Origin: Akkermansia muciniphila
GTDB taxonomy: Bacteria > Verrucomicrobiota > Verrucomicrobiia > Verrucomicrobiales > Akkermansiaceae
Direction: 5' to 3'
NCBI GenBank assembly: GCA_945870545.1
Contig: CAMBTF010000151.1
Location: forward strand, 1-5,293
DNA: 5,293 nt
In this document: positions 1-5,293 of the stretch, one piece after another
Layout of the letters: each line of letters starts with the position of its first letter
How positions within the stretch are numbered: position 1 is the stretch's first letter
Position numbers and translations under genes: made by a program
Notes under the pieces: model-generated
The model's input: the letters and a program-made list of their open reading frames with translations, nothing else
Databases searched by the model: none
What the model was told of the DNA's origin: nothing

Positions 1-11
1 GGGATTCATCG

Positions 12-94
12 GTCGCGGAGCGACTTCATGACAGTAGCCGTGGGTTTCAACCCACGGACTCCGCGCCACCCGCTTCCCCGCGTCGCGGCGCGAC
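12..94 (+). repeat. Full REP-like unit, left flank of the transposase
   Basis: This is an 83-nt composite palindromic unit. It contains a GTCGC-gga-GCGAC hairpin (12-24), a 9-nt spacer, GTAG (34-37), a hairpin with arms CCGTGGGTT/AACCCACGG and a 2-nt loop (38-57), a 24-nt spacer and a second hairpin GTCGC-ggc-GCGAC (82-94). A GTAG tetranucleotide at the foot of a short hairpin is the hallmark of REP elements recognised by RAYT transposases. The unit ends 27 nt beyond the transposase stop codon and points toward that gene. Positions 12-102 match 795-885 at 85 of 91 bases. The bases before it (1-11) also recur before 711, so the array may continue to the left of the window. Confidence 0.85.
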
Positions 95-121
95 GCTTGA
101 TGAACATACCTACGCCCCCGC

Positions 122-574
122 TCAATCCCACAGGTATTTCTCATCATAACTAACACCATGCTTTTGAAGCAACGCGAGGTATTCGTCCTGAAAGGTTCTG
201 CTCCGGTGATGTTCGCGTTGCCCCCGGATGTAGTCGGCCACACTCTCGACATTCGAGCGGCTCACGGTGAAACCTCCGAATCCATCCTGCCAAGCGAAGG
301 CTTTCATGTCCGGAAATGTATCGTGAATCCATGCGGATGACCCTCCTTTGACCATCTGCGCTATCTTGCTGGGTGCCAAAGTGGGAGACGCTCCCAAAAG
401 AACGTGGACATGATCCTCCACTCCACCGATCTGGATGGGCGTCATCTTGTTCTGTTTCGCGATCCCGGCCAGATAAGACCAGACGCGCTCCTCGATTTCC
501 GGGTTAATCCAGCGTTCGCGGTTCTTGGTGCTGAACACGAGATGGTAATGCAGGCTGGTGTAGGTGTTGGCCAT
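122..574 (-). CDS. IS200-like Y1 transposase, REP-associated (RAYT) type
   Basis: This intact 150-residue protein is a single-domain HUH/Y1 transposase (Y1_Tnp, IS200-like fold). Family members cut and rejoin single-stranded DNA at hairpin-tipped ends through a covalent phosphotyrosine. The opening YTSLHYHLVFSTKNR (residues 5-19) is the typical first strand. The metal-binding H-V-H is at residues 55-57, within GGVEDHVHVLLG. The presumed nucleophile is Tyr115 in the YIRGQREHH motif, followed by the FQDEYLALL and YDEKYLWD tail common in RAYT-like members. The ATG at 574-572 gives the usual length, but I see no clear Shine-Dalgarno sequence. The gene is flanked on both sides by inward-facing GTAG-hairpin units. 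That points to a REP-mobilising RAYT rather than a simple IS200 copy. It has the same orientation as aspS, about 340 nt downstream of it, but is probably an independent module. Confidence 0.93.
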   Translation of the reverse strand: MANTYTSLHYHLVFSTKNRERWINPEIEERVWSYLAGIAKQNKMTPIQIGGVEDHVHVLLGASPTLAPSKIAQMVKGGSSAWIHDTFPDMKAFAWQDGFGGFTVSRSNVESVADYIRGQREHHRSRTFQDEYLALLQKHGVSYDEKYLWD

Positions 575-589
575 CGTTTCGTTCGGAAC

Positions 590-671
590 GTCGCTACGCG
601 ACGCGGTTTGATTTTGGTTCCGTATCCCGTGGGTTGAAACCCACGGCTACCATCAATTGTCGCTCTGCGAC
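590..671 (-). repeat. Full REP-like unit, inverted, just upstream of the transposase start
   Basis: Read on the minus strand, this 82-nt unit has hairpin GTCGC-aga-GCGAC (671-659), an 8-nt spacer, GTAG (650-647), the hairpin with arms CCGTGGGTT/AACCCACGG (646-627), a 24-nt spacer and hairpin GTCGC-gta-GCGAC (602-590). The GTAG-plus-hairpin core is identical to that in the 12-94 and 795-877 units. The 24-nt spacer keeps its exact length, although almost none of its sequence is shared. The unit ends 15 nt before the transposase ATG, so it probably lies in the gene's promoter or 5' leader. It is inverted relative to the other units. Confidence 0.85.
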
Positions 672-682
672 AGGGAATTGTT

Positions 683-698
683 TCCGTTTGGAAACGGA
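683..698. repeat. Small palindrome between repeat units
   Basis: TCCGTTT-GG-AAACGGA is a perfect 7-bp-arm inverted repeat with a 2-nt loop. It lies in the short stretch joining the inverted unit (590-671) to the tandem array (711 onward). It may be a remnant of another hairpin or a junction left by rearrangement. No function can be assigned. Confidence 0.45.
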
Positions 699-710
699 TG
701 GGATTCATCG

Positions 711-794
711 GTCGCGGCGCGACTGCACGATGGTAGCCGTGGGTTTCTTCCCGTCGCGGCGCGACTTTATGACGGTAGCAGTGGGTTTCTTCCC
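711..794 (+). repeat. Two 42-bp tandem, half-deleted REP units
   Basis: Two copies (711-752 and 753-794) of a 42-bp period lie immediately before the full unit that starts at 795. Each has the hairpin GTCGC-ggc-GCGAC, a 9-nt spacer, GTAG (733-736; 775-778) and the left arm of the core hairpin. After GTGGGTTTC it jumps to TTCCC and then into the next GTCGC hairpin. The right arm and most of the 24-nt spacer are missing, so the core hairpin cannot form. The second copy also has a C-to-A change in the arm (GTAGCAGTGGG). These look like internal-deletion derivatives of the 83-nt unit that were then amplified in tandem. Confidence 0.85.
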
Positions 795-877
795 GTCGCG
801 GCGCGACTTCATGACGGTAGCCGTGGGTTTCAACCCACGGACTCCGCGCCACCCGATTCTCCGCGTCGCGGTGCGAC
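795..877 (+). repeat. Full REP-like unit, right side
   Basis: This 83-nt unit has the same parts as 12-94: hairpin GTCGC-ggc-GCGAC (795-807), 9-nt spacer, GTAG (817-820), core hairpin with 9-bp arms (821-840), 24-nt spacer and hairpin GTCGC-ggt-GCGAC (865-877). It forms the third period of the 42-bp tandem array but keeps the complete core hairpin. It lies in the 3' flank of aspS, ending 37 nt beyond the aspS stop codon, so transcripts leaving aspS would run into it. Confidence 0.85.
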
Positions 878-885
878 GCCTGATG

Positions 886-904
886 GGGATGTTCGGAACA
901 TCCC
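886..904. repeat. Perfect inverted repeat just after aspS
   Basis: GGGATGTTC-G-GAACATCCC is a perfect palindrome with 9-bp arms and a single central base, 10 nt beyond the aspS stop codon. On the aspS strand it could fold as a 3'-end hairpin, although the loop would need some arm bases to open. No T-run follows, so it is not a canonical intrinsic terminator. Its centre GTTCGGAAC recurs at 581-589, directly beside the inverted REP unit, so it may belong to the REP family's flanking sequence. Confidence 0.6.
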
Positions 905-914
905 AGCGCACAAA

Positions 915-2696
915 CTACTCAACCGGCTTCTTCTTGTAGGTGCTCTGCACGTAAACCTCGCGCAGTTCCTTCATGCCGATCTCGCAGGGGCTCTGCGCCA
1001 TGAGGTCGGCTCCCTTGTTGTTTTTCGGGAACTCGATGACCTCGCGGATGCTGTCCTCGCCGGCGACAAGCATCGCGATGCGGTCGAGGCCGAGCGCAAG
1101 GCCACCGTGGGGAGGTGCACCGAAGCGGAAGGCATCTAGGATATGTGCGAACTTGATCTGCTGCTCCTCCGGCGTGACGCCGAGTACCCCGAACATCTTC
1201 GCCTGGAGATCCTTTTCGTGGATCCGGATCGATCCGCCGCCGAGCTCGTAGCCGTTGAGAACCACGTCGTAGGCGACGGCGCGGACGTTGGCGTAATCGC
1301 CCTTTTCCAGAAGCTCGATATCGTCAGGATGCGGGCGGGTGAAAGGATGATGGACGGCAACCCAATGACCGCTCTCCTCATCGTGTGCGAGCAGCGGAAA
1401 ATCGACAACCCAGAGGAAATTGAATTTGTCCGGGTCGTTGTTGAGCTCCTGCATCACCGCGCATTCCGAGCGCACGCGGCCGAGGATGGTGGAAACGCTT
1501 TCGCGGGAACCGGCGGCGAAGAACACGATGTCGCCCTCCTCAAGGTTCATTTTCGAGGTTACGCTTGCCTTCTCCTCCTCGGTGAAAATTTTCCACAGCG
1601 GGCTCTTGTATTCGCCGCCTTCGAGCTTGATGAACGCGAGGTTTTTCACCGGCAAGCCCGCCTGAACGGCGATCTCGTTGAGCCGGTTCATCTGGCCTGT
1701 AGTGATGCCCGCGAAGCCCTTCGCGTTGATCGCACGGACGACACCCGCGCCGTCGAGGATGCTACGGAAAATCTTGAACTCGGTCGCGCCGAACACGTCG
1801 GCGAGATCAGTGATTTTCATATCGAAGCGCGTGTCCGGCTTGTCGGATCCGTAGATATCCATCGCCTCGCGGTAGGTCATGCGCGGGAACTCCGCCGGGA
1901 TGTCGATACCGAGGCCGGCTTTGAACATCGCACCGAGCAGACCCTGCACGAGTTTGATGATGTCCTCTTGGCCGATGAAGCTCGCCTCGATGTCGATCTG
2001 TGTGAACTCCGGCTGTCGGTCGGCGCGCAAGTCCTCGTCGCGGAAGCAGCGGGCGATCTGGTAGTATTTTTCCAGACCAGCCACCATCATCAGCTGCTTG
2101 TATTGCTGCGGCGCCTGCGGCAGAGCGTAAAATTTCCCGGGGTTGAGGCGGGAGGGCACGAGAAAATCGCGCGCGCCTTCGGGGGTCGGGTTCGAAAGGA
2201 TGGGCGTCTCGATCTCGAAGAAGCCGGACTCATCGAGGAAACGGCGCGCGGCCGAGGTGATCTTGCTGCGCTGGCGGATGTTTTTCGCCATGCGCGGGCG
2301 GCGCAAGTCGAGGTAACGATATTTCATCCGGATATCCTCGTTGGAAAGCTCCTTGTCGAGTTGGAAAGGCAGCACGTCCGCTTTGTTCACGATCTCCATC
2401 TTGCTCGCCACGATCTCGACCGTGCCTGTGGCCATCTTGTCGTTCTCCGCACCGTCAAGGCGCCTCGCGACTTTTCCGGTAACGCGCACCACATCCTCCT
2501 CGCGCAGCGTATGCGAAAGCTCGGCCACCACCGCATCCTCCTCCGGACGGAACACGCATTGCGTCAGGCCCTCGCGGTCACGCAGGTCGATAAAAATGAC
2601 GCCGCCGTGGTCGCGCGCGGAATTCACCCAACCGATCAGGCTGACGGTTTCGCCGATGTGGGATTCTTTGAGTTCGTTGCAGTGGTGTGTTCTCAT
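915..2696 (-). CDS. aspS: Aspartyl-tRNA synthetase, bacterial type, probably non-discriminating
   Basis: This cytosolic class II aminoacyl-tRNA synthetase charges tRNA-Asp (and possibly tRNA-Asn) with aspartate using ATP. The 593 residues match the bacterial length (E. coli about 590). The N-terminal OB-fold anticodon domain covers about 1-105. Motif 1 is around TPILSNPTPEGARDF (164-178), QAPQQYKQL is at 194-202, and motif 2 with FRDEDLRADRQPEFTQID is at 218-235. The bacterial GAD insertion spans about 250-380. Motif 3 GLALGLDR ends at Arg539. The ATG at 2696 (MRTHHCNEL) aligns with the family N-terminus. The 37 residues encoded upstream do not look like AspRS and run into repeat 2721-2756. 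An ATG two codons earlier (2702) is possible, and neither has an evident Shine-Dalgarno sequence. His30 and Gly82 match residues linked to non-discriminating activity. It is probably co-transcribed with hisS, or served by a promoter in the gap around 2697-2763. Confidence 0.97.
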   Translation of the reverse strand: MRTHHCNELKESHIGETVSLIGWVNSARDHGGVIFIDLRDREGLTQCVFRPEEDAVVAELSHTLREEDVVRVTGKVARRLDGAENDKMATGTVEIVASKMEIVNKADVLPFQLDKELSNEDIRMKYRYLDLRRPRMAKNIRQRSKITSAARRFLDESGFFEIETPILSNPTPEGARDFLVPSRLNPGKFYALPQAPQQYKQLMMVAGLEKYYQIARCFRDEDLRADRQPEFTQIDIEASFIGQEDIIKLVQGLLGAMFKAGLGIDIPAEFPRMTYREAMDIYGSDKPDTRFDMKITDLADVFGATEFKIFRSILDGAGVVRAINAKGFAGITTGQMNRLNEIAVQAGLPVKNLAFIKLEGGEYKSPLWKIFTEEEKASVTSKMNLEEGDIVFFAAGSRESVSTILGRVRSECAVMQELNNDPDKFNFLWVVDFPLLAHDEESGHWVAVHHPFTRPHPDDIELLEKGDYANVRAVAYDVVLNGYELGGGSIRIHEKDLQAKMFGVLGVTPEEQQIKFAHILDAFRFGAPPHGGLALGLDRIAMLVAGEDSIREVIEFPKNNKGADLMAQSPCEIGMKELREVYVQSTYKKKPVE

Positions 2697-2720
2697 GGAC
2701 ATGTGAAAGAAAGATTTTTT

Positions 2721-2756
2721 AACCGCAGATGGACGGGATGAACGCAGATGGAAGAG
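2721..2756 (+). repeat. 36-bp inverted repeat, left copy (IR-L)
   Basis: This copy matches 3147-3182 on the opposite strand at 35 of 36 bases. It is built from degenerate ~10-bp steps: AACCGCAGATG, GACGGGATGA, ACGCAGATGG. The octamer CGCAGATG occurs at 2724-2731 and 2743-2750. It begins 7 nt beyond the stop codon of the GxxExxY gene and lies in the 5' leader of aspS. With its partner it brackets the GxxExxY gene almost exactly. Confidence 0.9.
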
Positions 2757-2763
2757 GGGATCA

Positions 2764-3174
2764 TTAAGAAGTGGATTTTGGGGAAAGAGTGACTCTACGA
2801 AACTCAAGTTTGGAGTATTTAAAATTAAGGATGAGACCTACCTGAAGACCACTGACGCGCAGGTAATTCAGCATCTGACCGATTTCATGATCGGTAATGC
2901 GGGGAATGGTTTTCGTATCGACGACTATTTTCCCGAAAACGATGAGATCAGGAATGAATTCGCCGACCGTGATGTCGCGATGATGGACAGGGAAGCGAGG
3001 CTGCTGGAGAAAGTGGATTTCTTGGTGTCGGAATTCAACCACAAGCGCGTTCTCATACACTTTCTCATAGAAGCCATGTCCCACTGTATTCAAAACTCTA
3101 AACGCACAGCCGATCACGCGCTCCGTCTCAAGAACATGTATCTCTTCTCTTCCATCTGCGTTCATCCCGTTCAT
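2764..3174 (-). CDS. GxxExxY family protein (PDDEXK-like)
   Basis: This 136-residue protein belongs to the GxxExxY family (PF13366, PDDEXK_3), whose function is unknown and whose fold resembles PD-(D/E)xK nucleases. Counting from the first Met, the name motif is G34-F-Y-E37-K-V-Y40. It is followed by the candidate catalytic strand GEFIPDLIV (Asp76) and VVDTKTI (Asp86, Lys88), where many relatives have ELK. The C-terminal segment IGQMLNYLRVSGLQVGLILNF is also typical. The ATG at 3174 or the one at 3165 (MNADGRE) could be the start. Both lie inside repeat 3147-3182, so the repeat encodes the N-terminus. The frame stays open upstream into hisS, but that part is only hisS shadow. The gene is more AT-rich than its neighbours: 109 G+C of 240 at 2761-3000, against 37 of 60 at 1021-1080 in aspS. 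That supports acquisition as an insert between hisS and aspS. Confidence 0.9.
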   Translation of the reverse strand: MNGMNADGREEIHVLETERVIGCAFRVLNTVGHGFYEKVYENALVVEFRHQEIHFLQQPRFPVHHRDITVGEFIPDLIVFGKIVVDTKTIPRITDHEIGQMLNYLRVSGLQVGLILNFKYSKLEFRRVTLSPKSTS

Positions 3175-3182
3175 CTGCGGTT
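3147..3182 (-). repeat. 36-bp inverted repeat, right copy (IR-R)
   Basis: Read on the minus strand, this is the partner of 2721-2756, differing only at base 12 (A for G). It starts 9 nt beyond the hisS stop codon and overlaps the 5' end of the GxxExxY gene. Three ATGs in the repeat lie at 3174, 3165 and 3156. The first two are the likely start candidates and read MNGMNADGRE. The repeat therefore supplies the gene's translation start, while its partner lies just past the stop. Confidence 0.9.
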
Positions 3183-3191
3183 GATATTCTT

Positions 3192-4487
3192 TTATGCCAA
3201 CAAAGGCCCGTCGGGTTCGGTGAGGCGTTGTTTGATCCACACCACAAGAGAGGCGGCTTCGCATTCCTCTTCCAAGCGGCTGGCGAGGATCTTGATTTTT
3301 ACCTGTGGGAATTCCTGGCCGATGACGACCGCGAATCTCGCGCCGCATTTCTCGGCGGCTTGGAATTGCTTGGCGACCTTCGCCTCGGAGAGCGGGAGAT
3401 CTGCGGAAACGCCGGCGCGGCGCAGGTCGGTGACAAGCTTGAGCGCATCGTCGCGGCGACTGGCGTCGGGCACGACCATATAAACCTCGCAGCCCGCGGC
3501 GTTGCGCTGGAGCCAAACCTCCATCTGCATCGCGGCATGAGTGGTTTCCTCGATGAGGTTGCGGATCACGTAATCGCCCATCGCGAAACCCGTGGCGGGC
3601 ATGTCCACCGCACCATCGGAAATCGTTTTCACCAGCGTGTCGTATCGACCCCCGCCCGCGATGGCGCGCATCGATTTTTTCGAATCGAACACCTCGAAGA
3701 CCACGCCTGTGTAATAAGCGAGGCCGCGGACGATGGAGAGATCCAGTTCCACGAAAGCGCCGAAGCCGCGGGCGGTGAGATCCGCGCGGATCGCGTCGTA
3801 GGCTTCCGAGGCGTTCGCGGGGTTCGCGACAAAGGCTTTCACCTCCTCCAAGGTCATCCCGAAGGCCGCGAGCTTTGCGGTGAGAACTTCCGGCTTCTCG
3901 CGTTCCAGCTTGTCCACGAGGCCGAGGAAATCCGCCATCCGCGCGTCATCGACGCCCTTGCCTTCTGCGAATTTCAACCATGCGTTGCGGTCTGAGACGC
4001 GCACCACGAAATCACCTGCCACGAAACCGAAGGCGAGCATCGTCTCGATCGCCAGCGCGATCAGCTCCGCATCGGCGCCCGGGCCTGCCTCGCCTAGGAT
4101 GTCGACATTGAACTGATGAAACTCGCGCCCGCGGCCTTTCTGCGGCTTCTCGTAGCGGAAGCACTGGCCGATCTCGAACCACTTGAGCGGCTTCGGATAC
4201 TGCCGCTGCTCCACCGCCGCGATCCGGGCGAGCGAGGCGGTCACTTCCGGGCGCAACGTCACATCCCGGCCGCCCTGATCCTCGAAACGGAATAGCTGCG
4301 AGGAAAGCTCACCACCGGATTTTTTCAGATAAAGCGCGGTGTCCTCAAGGATGGGCGTTTCATACTCCACAAACCCACACCGCCGCGCGACCCCACGCCA
4401 AGTCTCAAACAGGTAATTCCGCACCGCGCATTCACGGGGAGTGAAGTCCCGGAAGCCGGGGAGTGCTTGGAAAACGGTGGATGCCAT
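3192..4487 (-). CDS. hisS: Histidyl-tRNA synthetase
   Basis: This cytosolic class II synthetase attaches histidine to tRNA-His. The protein has 431 residues, within the usual bacterial range. From the ATG at 4487 (MASTVFQALPGFRDFTP), motif 1 includes VEYETPILED (40-49) and the ATP/histidine region includes LRPEVTASLAR (78-88). Motif 2 is FRYEKPQKGRGREFHQFNVD (110-129), the histidine-binding loop is IVRGLAYYTG (252-261), and AGGGRYD is at 277-283. The C-terminal anticodon-binding domain covers about 333-431. Many bacterial enzymes have RGLDYY where this one has RGLAYY. I recall the Ala form from Verrucomicrobiota relatives, so I read it as a lineage feature. A GTG at 4523 would add 12 residues without family resemblance, so I prefer the ATG. 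No clear Shine-Dalgarno sequence is visible. The gene is first in the hisS-GxxExxY-aspS run and divergent from tRNA-Glu. Confidence 0.96.
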   Translation of the reverse strand: MASTVFQALPGFRDFTPRECAVRNYLFETWRGVARRCGFVEYETPILEDTALYLKKSGGELSSQLFRFEDQGGRDVTLRPEVTASLARIAAVEQRQYPKPLKWFEIGQCFRYEKPQKGRGREFHQFNVDILGEAGPGADAELIALAIETMLAFGFVAGDFVVRVSDRNAWLKFAEGKGVDDARMADFLGLVDKLEREKPEVLTAKLAAFGMTLEEVKAFVANPANASEAYDAIRADLTARGFGAFVELDLSIVRGLAYYTGVVFEVFDSKKSMRAIAGGGRYDTLVKTISDGAVDMPATGFAMGDYVIRNLIEETTHAAMQMEVWLQRNAAGCEVYMVVPDASRRDDALKLVTDLRRAGVSADLPLSEAKVAKQFQAAEKCGARFAVVIGQEFPQVKIKILASRLEEECEAASLVVWIKQRLTEPDGPLLA

Positions 4488-4681
4488 GGTTCGGGGGGCG
4501 CGACAATGCACGGCGATCCCCACATATCAAGCCAAACTCTCGTAGAGACGGAAGACTGGGAGACACAAGACACAAGAGAAGAGGGGGCTTTGCGGGCATT
4601 GGAAAATTTTTCCGGCACTGGCAGAAAATCCTTGCAAGCCCTCCGGTGCTCCGCTTTCTTGCCCCCCGCACCGCGACCAAC
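4488..4681. other. Divergent intergenic region between hisS and tRNA-Glu
   Basis: These 194 nt must hold the promoters of hisS (leftward) and tRNA-Glu (rightward). I see no convincing -35/-10 pair for either. The best tRNA candidate is TTGCAA at 4632-4637 with a weak TTTCTT 17 nt later. A short palindrome GGAAAA-T-TTTTCC lies at 4601-4613. A purine-rich stretch at 4559-4580 holds the 7-mer GACACAA twice in tandem. No gene is evident. Confidence 0.5.
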
Positions 4682-4756
4682 GACCCGTTCGTCTATCGGT
4701 TAGGACTCCAGGTTTTCATCCTGGCAAGAAGGGTTCGACTCCCTTACGGGTCGCCA
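4682..4756 (+). tRNA. tRNA-Glu (anticodon UUC), CCA encoded
   Basis: The sequence folds into a complete cloverleaf. The acceptor stem GACCCGT pairs with ACGGGTC. The D arm is GTC...GAC with loop TATCGGTTAG. The anticodon stem CCAGG/CCTGG encloses loop TTTTCAT, giving anticodon TTC for glutamate. A 4-nt variable region CAAG follows, and the T arm AAGGG-TTCGACT-CCCTT has an intact TTCGA. The discriminator is G (4753), and the CCA tail is encoded at 4754-4756. The start GACCCGT-TC-GTCTA resembles other bacterial tRNA-Glu genes. It is followed 40 nt later by an intrinsic terminator. Confidence 0.97.
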
Positions 4757-4795
4757 TCGTTTTCCCAGAAACGCAGGCATTTCATGGCAAAAACA

Positions 4796-4831
4796 GCCTC
4801 CGATCAGAGCACCGCTCCCCGGAGGCTTTTT
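4796..4831 (+). terminator. Intrinsic terminator after tRNA-Glu
   Basis: GCCTCCG (4796-4802) and CGGAGGC (4820-4826) form a 7-bp GC-rich stem around a 17-nt loop, directly followed by TTTTT (4827-4831). This fits a rho-independent terminator ending the tRNA-Glu transcript. The loop is longer than usual. On the opposite strand the stem is followed by TGTTTTT, so it may work in both directions. It lies upstream of the panB start proposed here. Confidence 0.75.
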
Positions 4832-4856
4832 CATTTCACCAAGAAAAATCCATCCC

Positions 4857-5293
<437 letters not shown>

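Follow-up and report, generated by a model that had tools for sequence, protein, structure and literature searches.

What joins a 136-codon gene to the inverted repeat that encloses it in the gap between hisS and aspS, and does the whole move as a mobile element? The question arises from a 5,293-nt stretch of Akkermansia muciniphila DNA (GCA_945870545.1, contig CAMBTF010000151.1, positions 1 to 5,293), here called the window at its full length, which lies on one contig of a host assembly of 1.97 Mb that is 72% complete. Its minus strand carries, in order, hisS, a GxxExxY gene and aspS, the flanking genes being identified by Pfam. In the reading that we prefer, at a probability of about 60%, the GxxExxY protein and the word arrays around its gene form a pair comparable to the repetitive extragenic palindromes (REPs) and their REP-associated tyrosine transposases (RAYTs), built on an unrelated Cas4-like nuclease acting in trans.

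A GxxExxY gene between arrays of short words

A preliminary description of the window had noted two inverted 36-nt repeats with 35/36 identity, and an inverted-repeat search confirmed them as the longest inverted pair listed within the window. The left arm (2721-2756, minus strand) lies downstream of the gene and the right arm (3147-3182, minus strand) upstream, overlapping the gene start, with a spacer of 390 nt. Each arm has an (A)ACC start followed by near-tandem words of about 10 bp, C-R-C-N-R-A-N, the word of the window being CGCAGAT; in plus-strand text the left arm, with its AACC end and words, reads AACCGCAGATGGACGGGATGAACGCAGATGGAAGAG. The gene (2764-3174, minus strand; 136 aa from the ATG at 3174) starts inside the right copy and stops 7 nt before the left one, as described: two in-frame ATGs, at 3174 and alternatively at 3165, are within the right arm, and positions 2757-2763 separate the stop codon (2764-2766) from the left arm. 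Its position between hisS and aspS and its AT-richness were likewise borne out, with a G+C content of 46.2% vs 61.7% in hisS and 59.9% in aspS.

Repeat and gene had been taken as one unit of a general kind, and testing GxxExxY loci with their flanks upheld this in all three samples, with matched inverted arms at 223 of 263 testable loci and at 9.5%, 1.6% and 0% in the respective controls. An inverted match was sought between the two 350-nt flanks of the Pfam match, and a score of at least 18 was a pass. The first sample came from the genus of the window, where PF13366 is present in 52 of 61 genomes; the matches listed held 138 loci, four with less than 120 nt of flank were dropped, and 119 of the 134 testable ones passed (median score 27). 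Its control of 1973 mismatched cross-genome pairs (9.5% passing, median 11) is a strict one, since such pairs may share a word. For the cross-phylum sample, 552 loci were found in named GTDB genomes and the best 80 taken, one of which was dropped (56 nt upstream); 63 of 79 passed, compared with 1.6% of 1653 control windows with identical geometry on the same contigs. Passing records bear titles from Verrucomicrobia, Bacteroidetes, Planctomycetes, Acidobacteria, Chloroflexi, a cyanobacterium, Alphaproteobacteria, Methylobacter, Cloacimonadota, Ignavibacteria, Parachlamydiales and Methanosarcinales archaea, where single taxon assignments may be wrong because many of these records are metagenome bins. 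In other genera of the window's phylum, 41 of 50 loci passed and none of 117 controls. Over both arms, at least three words of the grammar were present in 198 of the 223 arm-positive loci.

The idea that genes elsewhere also start within the repeat stood only in part. Among 116 genus loci with an inverted-repeat (IR) score of at least 18 and free of internal stops, an in-frame ATG is found within the left arm at 41, only outside it at 74 and not at all at one. In these loci the median distance from stop codon to arm is 4 nt and the median unit is 498 nt long. At six loci (L098, L153, L151, L119, L102 and L412), a complete inverted pair was observed on each side of the GxxExxY gene, which thus stands between two whole repeat pairs instead of two arms.

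The window protein matches PF13366 (PDDEXK_3; 115.4 bits, cut-off 22), its sole Pfam family, and TIGR04256 (GxxExxY; 121.3 bits, cut-off 35). In an alignment of 54 sequences, G34, E37 and Y40 of the G-x-x-E-x-x-Y motif are invariant alongside Asp76, Lys88 and Gln100, and the segment from Asp76 to Lys88 (2911-2949, minus strand) is the predicted active site. The AlphaFold model (mean pLDDT 93.1) finds its better fold matches mostly among DNA nucleases, with RNA-splicing endonucleases ranking lower. The protein is predicted to be a Cas4-like PD-(D/E)XK nuclease, its activity being suggested by the fold and the invariant residues. A sequence search against solved structures gave no match and PHROGs one marginal match only; in the limited PADLOC library the window protein has no match at E 0.01, and Cas4 profiles give weak matches for two relatives, at E 8e-4 or worse. 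Pfam and TIGRFAM profiles recognise no transposase in the unit.

GxxExxY proteins are widespread in the window's phylum, where 164 of 288 genomes carry them with up to 12 matches per genome. In the literature searched (including PMC8934634 and PMC12085832), GxxExxY appears as a gene neighbour or a gene-table entry. No description of a role for the family was found in the literature searched, nor any account of its association with repeats, in a body of text that covers few subscription journals. Six word arrays searched for as text matched papers on animal tissue.

Residues of the protein and letters of the word

Word type follows protein descent. On a tree of 135 genus proteins (125 columns; three proteins with internal stops left out), 28 rows without a word were not counted, and the other 107 require 41 word changes, where 22 would be the minimum and shuffled labels average 84.0; none of 200 shuffles was as low. 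As the tree rests on 125 columns only and includes near copies, individual residues were examined, using rows with an IR score of at least 14 within 200 nt and at least three words (166 of 215 training loci and 36 of 50 hold-out loci).

Across the 166 training loci, letter 5 of the word was linked most strikingly (z 5.7) to one residue in helix 1, which is Thr17 in the window protein (codon 3124-3126, minus strand). The rule, Thr with G and Ala, Val, Gly or Cys with A, was fixed in writing before 50 new loci were read. It held in 25 of 26 hold-out rows, with G in 19/19 for Thr and A in 6/7 for Ala, Val, Gly or Cys, in proteins with a median identity of 62% to the closest training protein. The window itself is concordant, combining Thr with CGCAGAT. 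Rows with Ser (51 training, 10 hold-out) stand outside these counts and are mixed in both sets; a sub-rule formulated post hoc has Ser followed by Glu or Gly with G (23/23) and by Lys, Asn, Gln or His with A (22/24).

Reading letter 5 from the downstream arm alone, more than 300 nt away from the residue codon, gave Thr with G in 73/73 (one more row was not callable) and Ala, Val, Gly or Cys with A in 55/58, the exceptions being L192, L195 and L442. A coding artefact was rejected as the source of the rule on the basis of this result. Among 25 edge-disjoint nearest pairs differing in letter 5, the residue differs in 19. The protein paired with G is the one with Thr in 14 cases, the protein paired with A in no case, and one further pair has Thr in both proteins. 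Tree-derived pairs on well-supported branches are nearly always concordant and number only three, too few as a test.

A weaker association links letter 2 to the position of Gln111 (codon 2842-2844, minus strand), where Lys or Arg tends to go with A and other residues with G. Exceptions in the training set are G in 17/63 Lys/Arg rows and A in 29/103 other rows, and the position was chosen partly from hold-out rows. A rule for letter 7 was dropped, as this letter tracks the deepest split of the protein tree, is thus inseparable from descent and offers 6 disjoint pairs only; for letter 4 no clear alignment column emerged. Since the residue tracks the word letter across relatives, the enzyme likely reads these repeats, and recognition and binding of its own word by the GxxExxY protein are well supported by the comparison of sequences. 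A small hydrophobic side chain for A:T and a hydroxyl for G:C would be chemically reasonable.

Dispersed pairs and a mostly resident gene

Searching the host genome for the repeat, as had been proposed, revealed cognate gene-less pairs dispersed in it. The only other GxxExxY gene found in the host has matched inverted arms with the word CGCAGAG and encodes a protein 29% identical to that of the window. Arrays of the first type (CGCAGAT) were located by pattern at 26 places vs none in a reversed-pattern control, and those of the second (CGCAGAG) at 15 places, including the two arms of that gene, vs one. A chance repeat was rejected on the mismatched-pair, same-contig window and reversed-pattern controls.

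Fifteen of the 19 distinct first-type places inspected consist of an inverted pair 82-162 nt in span, which leaves no room for a gene. The inner tail of the start-side arm of the window gene is present on 7 of the 19 (with at most 2 mismatches) and nowhere in 43 kb of surrounding sequence. First-type pairs are the more diverged (e.g., 79-83% identity over about 100 nt); five second-type places, each on its own contig, have about 170-260 nt in common with 92-96% identity. As the aligned copies on C111, C120 and C178 have unrelated outer sequence, gene-less pairs have spread within the host genome. The repetitive part of the genome is the gene-less pair and not the cassette that the preliminary description had considered possibly mobile. 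A near-identical element of about 250 nt surrounds the CGCAGAG pair at L036, L038 and L040 (the C111, C120 and C178 copies) and also at L031 and L042, with inverted ends CCGCAGTT / AACTGCGG, and the spread unit of this pair may reach 15-20 nt past the word arms.

Across genomes, copy number goes with possession of the gene for two words. CGCGAAT has a median of 23 copies in genomes with a known cognate gene vs 3 in those without (p 5e-4), and CGCCAAG 7 vs 1 (p 0.003); subtracting the gene's own two arms leaves p 0.0013 and 0.0085, respectively. Taking three words together, the median is 1 copy in the 9 genomes without PF13366 vs 18 in the 52 others (p 8e-4), and when word labels were shuffled within genomes the observed fit was reached in 150 of 5000 trials. 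In G020, the case that prompted a test of finer agreement, the gene arms start with AACGCC rather than ACCGCC, and so do 10/10 other exact arrays. G018 has 75 matches to the CGCCAAG three-word array, the most of the 61 genomes, some of them 120-150 nt apart on one strand, and no CGCCAAG-type gene among the loci read. About nine head-to-tail CGCGAATGAA words at G025:C73:7563-7661 represent a local expansion of one word.

The gene behaves differently from the pairs. By shared outer flanks (grouped transitively), the 138 genus loci form 50 site groups, the largest with 28, 14 and 11 loci, and such sharing of few sites by many loci indicates that the gene mostly stays where it is and is passed on at that site. 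The group of 11 is the hisS-aspS gap (2700-3191 in the window). Of the 30 best loci, 28 junctions could be read there (26 from the genus, 2 from the order), of which 8 carry the full unit, 2 (L054 and L056) are down to remnants that include element ends, and 18 are without the gene, some of these with relic arms. At L059, L062, L069 and L070 the unit-free gap holds inverted pairs of a second grammar (AAGACGCAAGAC, AGACAGAAGAC), and the gap looks like a shared landing site.

The group of 28 occupies the gap between two metH open reading frames (ORFs), with PF02574 before and PF00809 after it, and 21 of the 61 genomes align across the whole unit at this site. In 28 further metH loci (L363-L392) some have a full unit and some a plain gap; remnants are left at others, clearly so in L388 and L390 and in degraded form in L387 and L389. 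Two genomes without any PF13366 match, G019 and G066, retain remnants or arm relics here (L387 and L378). The split of metH at the boundary between the homocysteine-methyltransferase and pterin-binding parts occurs in 26 of 28 loci, unit present or not, and the copies of G071 (L373) and G012 (L392) are continuous. Insertion into coding metH was rejected, metH being already two ORFs in relatives without the unit. Besides decay of the unit in place, replacement at a fixed site was also seen: between G001 and G013 the metH flanks are 93% identical and the proteins 59%, the words differ and identity drops at the arms, and G000 and G082 have flanks of 90% and proteins of 53% identity at metH, and 92% and 68% at hisS-aspS.

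These junctions bear on the foremost alternative, a minimal self-mobile element whose nuclease would act as a transposase on the terminal repeats and move the 0.46-kb cassette, with gene-less pairs as deletion derivatives (miniature inverted-repeat transposable elements, MITEs). Inverted ends tightly enclosing the gene, the occurrence at both hisS-aspS and metH of junctions with a full unit, a reduced one or none, and different units at one site between flanks 90-93% identical would all suit it, and terminal inverted repeats with internally deleted derivatives are what a MITE and its parent insertion sequence share with the unit. We consider it unlikely, as the same sites recur across many species, no target duplication was seen, a known transposase is lacking and the 72%-complete host assembly has two dissimilar gene units, not several alike. 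The family is also rare on plasmids and absent from phage records in one query: L085 had matches in 7 of 72,556 plasmid records and in none of 50,697 phage records, and no relative was found in viral contigs at the sensitivity of that scan. On these scans a viral or plasmid cargo gene was rejected. What survives of the minimal mobile element of the preliminary description is full and empty junctions, with relatives lacking the unit at hisS-aspS, and same-site replacement; free hopping is not supported, and no target duplication was seen. The two outcomes it had named as telling against it were not encountered.

A proposed REP/RAYT-like pair and its competitors

The system to which we compare the unit, the REPtron (TnpA-REP with REPs or REPINs), is a small, mostly resident gene beside repeats dispersed largely as inverted pairs, with repeat and protein types that co-vary (PMC8266576, PMC3116915). 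GxxExxY resembles such a REPtron in its cognate repeats, found next to the gene on both sides and also scattered through the genome, for the most part in inverted pairs, in a gene that is mostly resident with some same-site replacements, and in the co-variation of repeat type with protein type. It differs in its arms, which are near-tandem words of about 10 bp and not short hairpins, and in repeats that enclose the gene from either side to form a single inverted unit. GxxExxY does not belong to REP/RAYT itself, because its PD-(D/E)XK enzyme (PF13366) is unrelated to the HUH/Y1 enzyme (PF01797) of RAYTs.

Among known nucleases the enzyme compares best with Cas4, lambda exonuclease and Hjc, with which it shares the fold, the invariant Glu, Asp, Lys and Gln and a Q-x-x-x-Y helix, which is typical of these nucleases. 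In contrast to Cas4, the GxxExxY protein is short, stands alone and is tied to its own flanking repeats, and with a single cysteine in the alignment consensus no Cas4-type iron-sulphur cluster is expected.

In the REP/RAYT-like reading, the GxxExxY protein would bind its word array in the arms and in the gene-less pairs, where a spacing of about one helical turn could let several protomers line up on one DNA face per arm. The enzyme would then act in trans on the paired repeats, cutting and copying them as is thought for RAYTs on REPs, while the gene itself would mostly stay in short operon gaps and the pairs scatter. Cutting would follow from the predicted fold; movement or copying of the pairs by this enzyme is the least certain step and is moderately supported.

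Several observations weigh against this reading. Cleavage, binding and movement are all deduced from sequence here, and the fit of arms to grammar is incomplete: the middle word of the window arms is CGGGAT and not CGCAGAT, 40 of the 263 loci lack a strong IR, and 25 of the 223 IR-positive loci lack the word pattern, having related arrays (ACAGGAT or CGCAATGG words) or other inverted repeats instead. For CGCAGAT, the word of the window, the excess of copies with the gene is not significant (p 0.067; 0.19 with arms subtracted). The pattern finds no copies in G010 and G022, which have a CGCAGAT gene, and 35-40 copies in G035, G077 and G079, where the matches listed include no CGCAGAT gene. The prediction from G020 failed in G077, where the gene arms have AACGCC, yet 8/9 other exact arrays have ACCGCC. 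In view of these mixed copy counts, dispersed sets generally match the gene but can lag behind or outlive it. An even 400-kb sample of G004 held 10 same-word tandem pairs (2 in the reversed control) and a single inverted place. In G066, a genome lacking any PF13366 match, 354 kb held 7 tandem pairs, each of a different word, and no inverted pair, against none in the reversed control; single tandem words by themselves are thus weak evidence. A systematic search for insertion polymorphisms of gene-less pairs gave a few weak cases. Orthologues of the repeat places of the host were sought in 400 kb of the close relative G008, where there was too little overlap. No target duplication was seen at hisS-aspS, at metH or at the dispersed pairs read, where the flanks are A-rich and diverged.

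The arms might alternatively be operators of an autoregulated nuclease of toxin or defence type, the dispersed arrays serving as regulatory or decoy sites. The overlap of the upstream arm with the start region in the window and the sequence-specific recognition implied by the residue rule would fit, but we regard this as improbable, given a second matched arm downstream of the gene in those 223 loci, gene-less copies that are mostly inverted pairs, clear remnants that retain both ends, and PADLOC results confined to the weak Cas4 matches of two relatives. Least probable is an RNA-level element like the 23S rRNA intervening sequences, in which the arms would pair in the transcript and the unit be processed from the operon mRNA: location in operon gaps (hisS-aspS, the split metH), a small ORF of similar size between inverted ends and the inverted arrays of PF05635 genes in the same genus (see below) recall it, whereas the arms vary in concert with an unrelated protein, use another word grammar and lie outside rRNA genes, the fold points mostly to DNA nucleases, orthologous gaps without the unit exist, and an Rfam scan of the window gave a tRNA only, with no rRNA found.

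If the REP/RAYT-like reading is right, the role of the GxxExxY family becomes directly testable, many unexplained dispersed repeats (arrays of ACCACAGAG..., CGCAGATG... and CACGAAGG...) gain an owner, and the REP/RAYT arrangement has evolved anew around an unrelated nuclease. A rule linking residues to bases in a nuclease this small would help explain the evolution of DNA specificity. More tentatively, GxxExxY proteins of bacteria, and probably of archaea, may be a second class of repeat-spreading enzymes resident in genomes, evolved independently of the first, with a code (letter 5, Thr for G and Ala, Val, Gly or Cys for A; letter 2, Lys or Arg for A) that would make the word predictable from the protein, and PF05635 a third class with its own grammar.

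Such a broader class is suggested by four-helix-bundle genes of PF05635 (23S_rRNA_IVP) in the same genus. Matched inverted arrays were present at 28 of 30 loci (L443-L472; 41 genomes searched, with no separate control), and they follow another grammar (AGACGCAAGAC..., AGTTTTCAGTGTTCAG..., AAGTCTAAAAGTC..., AGGGGTTAGGGG...).

Farther out, the window contains the start of a ketopantoate hydroxymethyltransferase gene and a RAYT-type Y1 transposase gene (122-574, minus strand; PF01797, 101 bits). Palindromes at 38-57, 627-646 and 821-840 are copies of CCGTGGGTTTCAACCCACGG on either side of the latter. This ordinary-looking REP/RAYT pair is about 2.1 kb from the GxxExxY unit, and one contig thus carries two unrelated repeat-plus-enzyme pairs.
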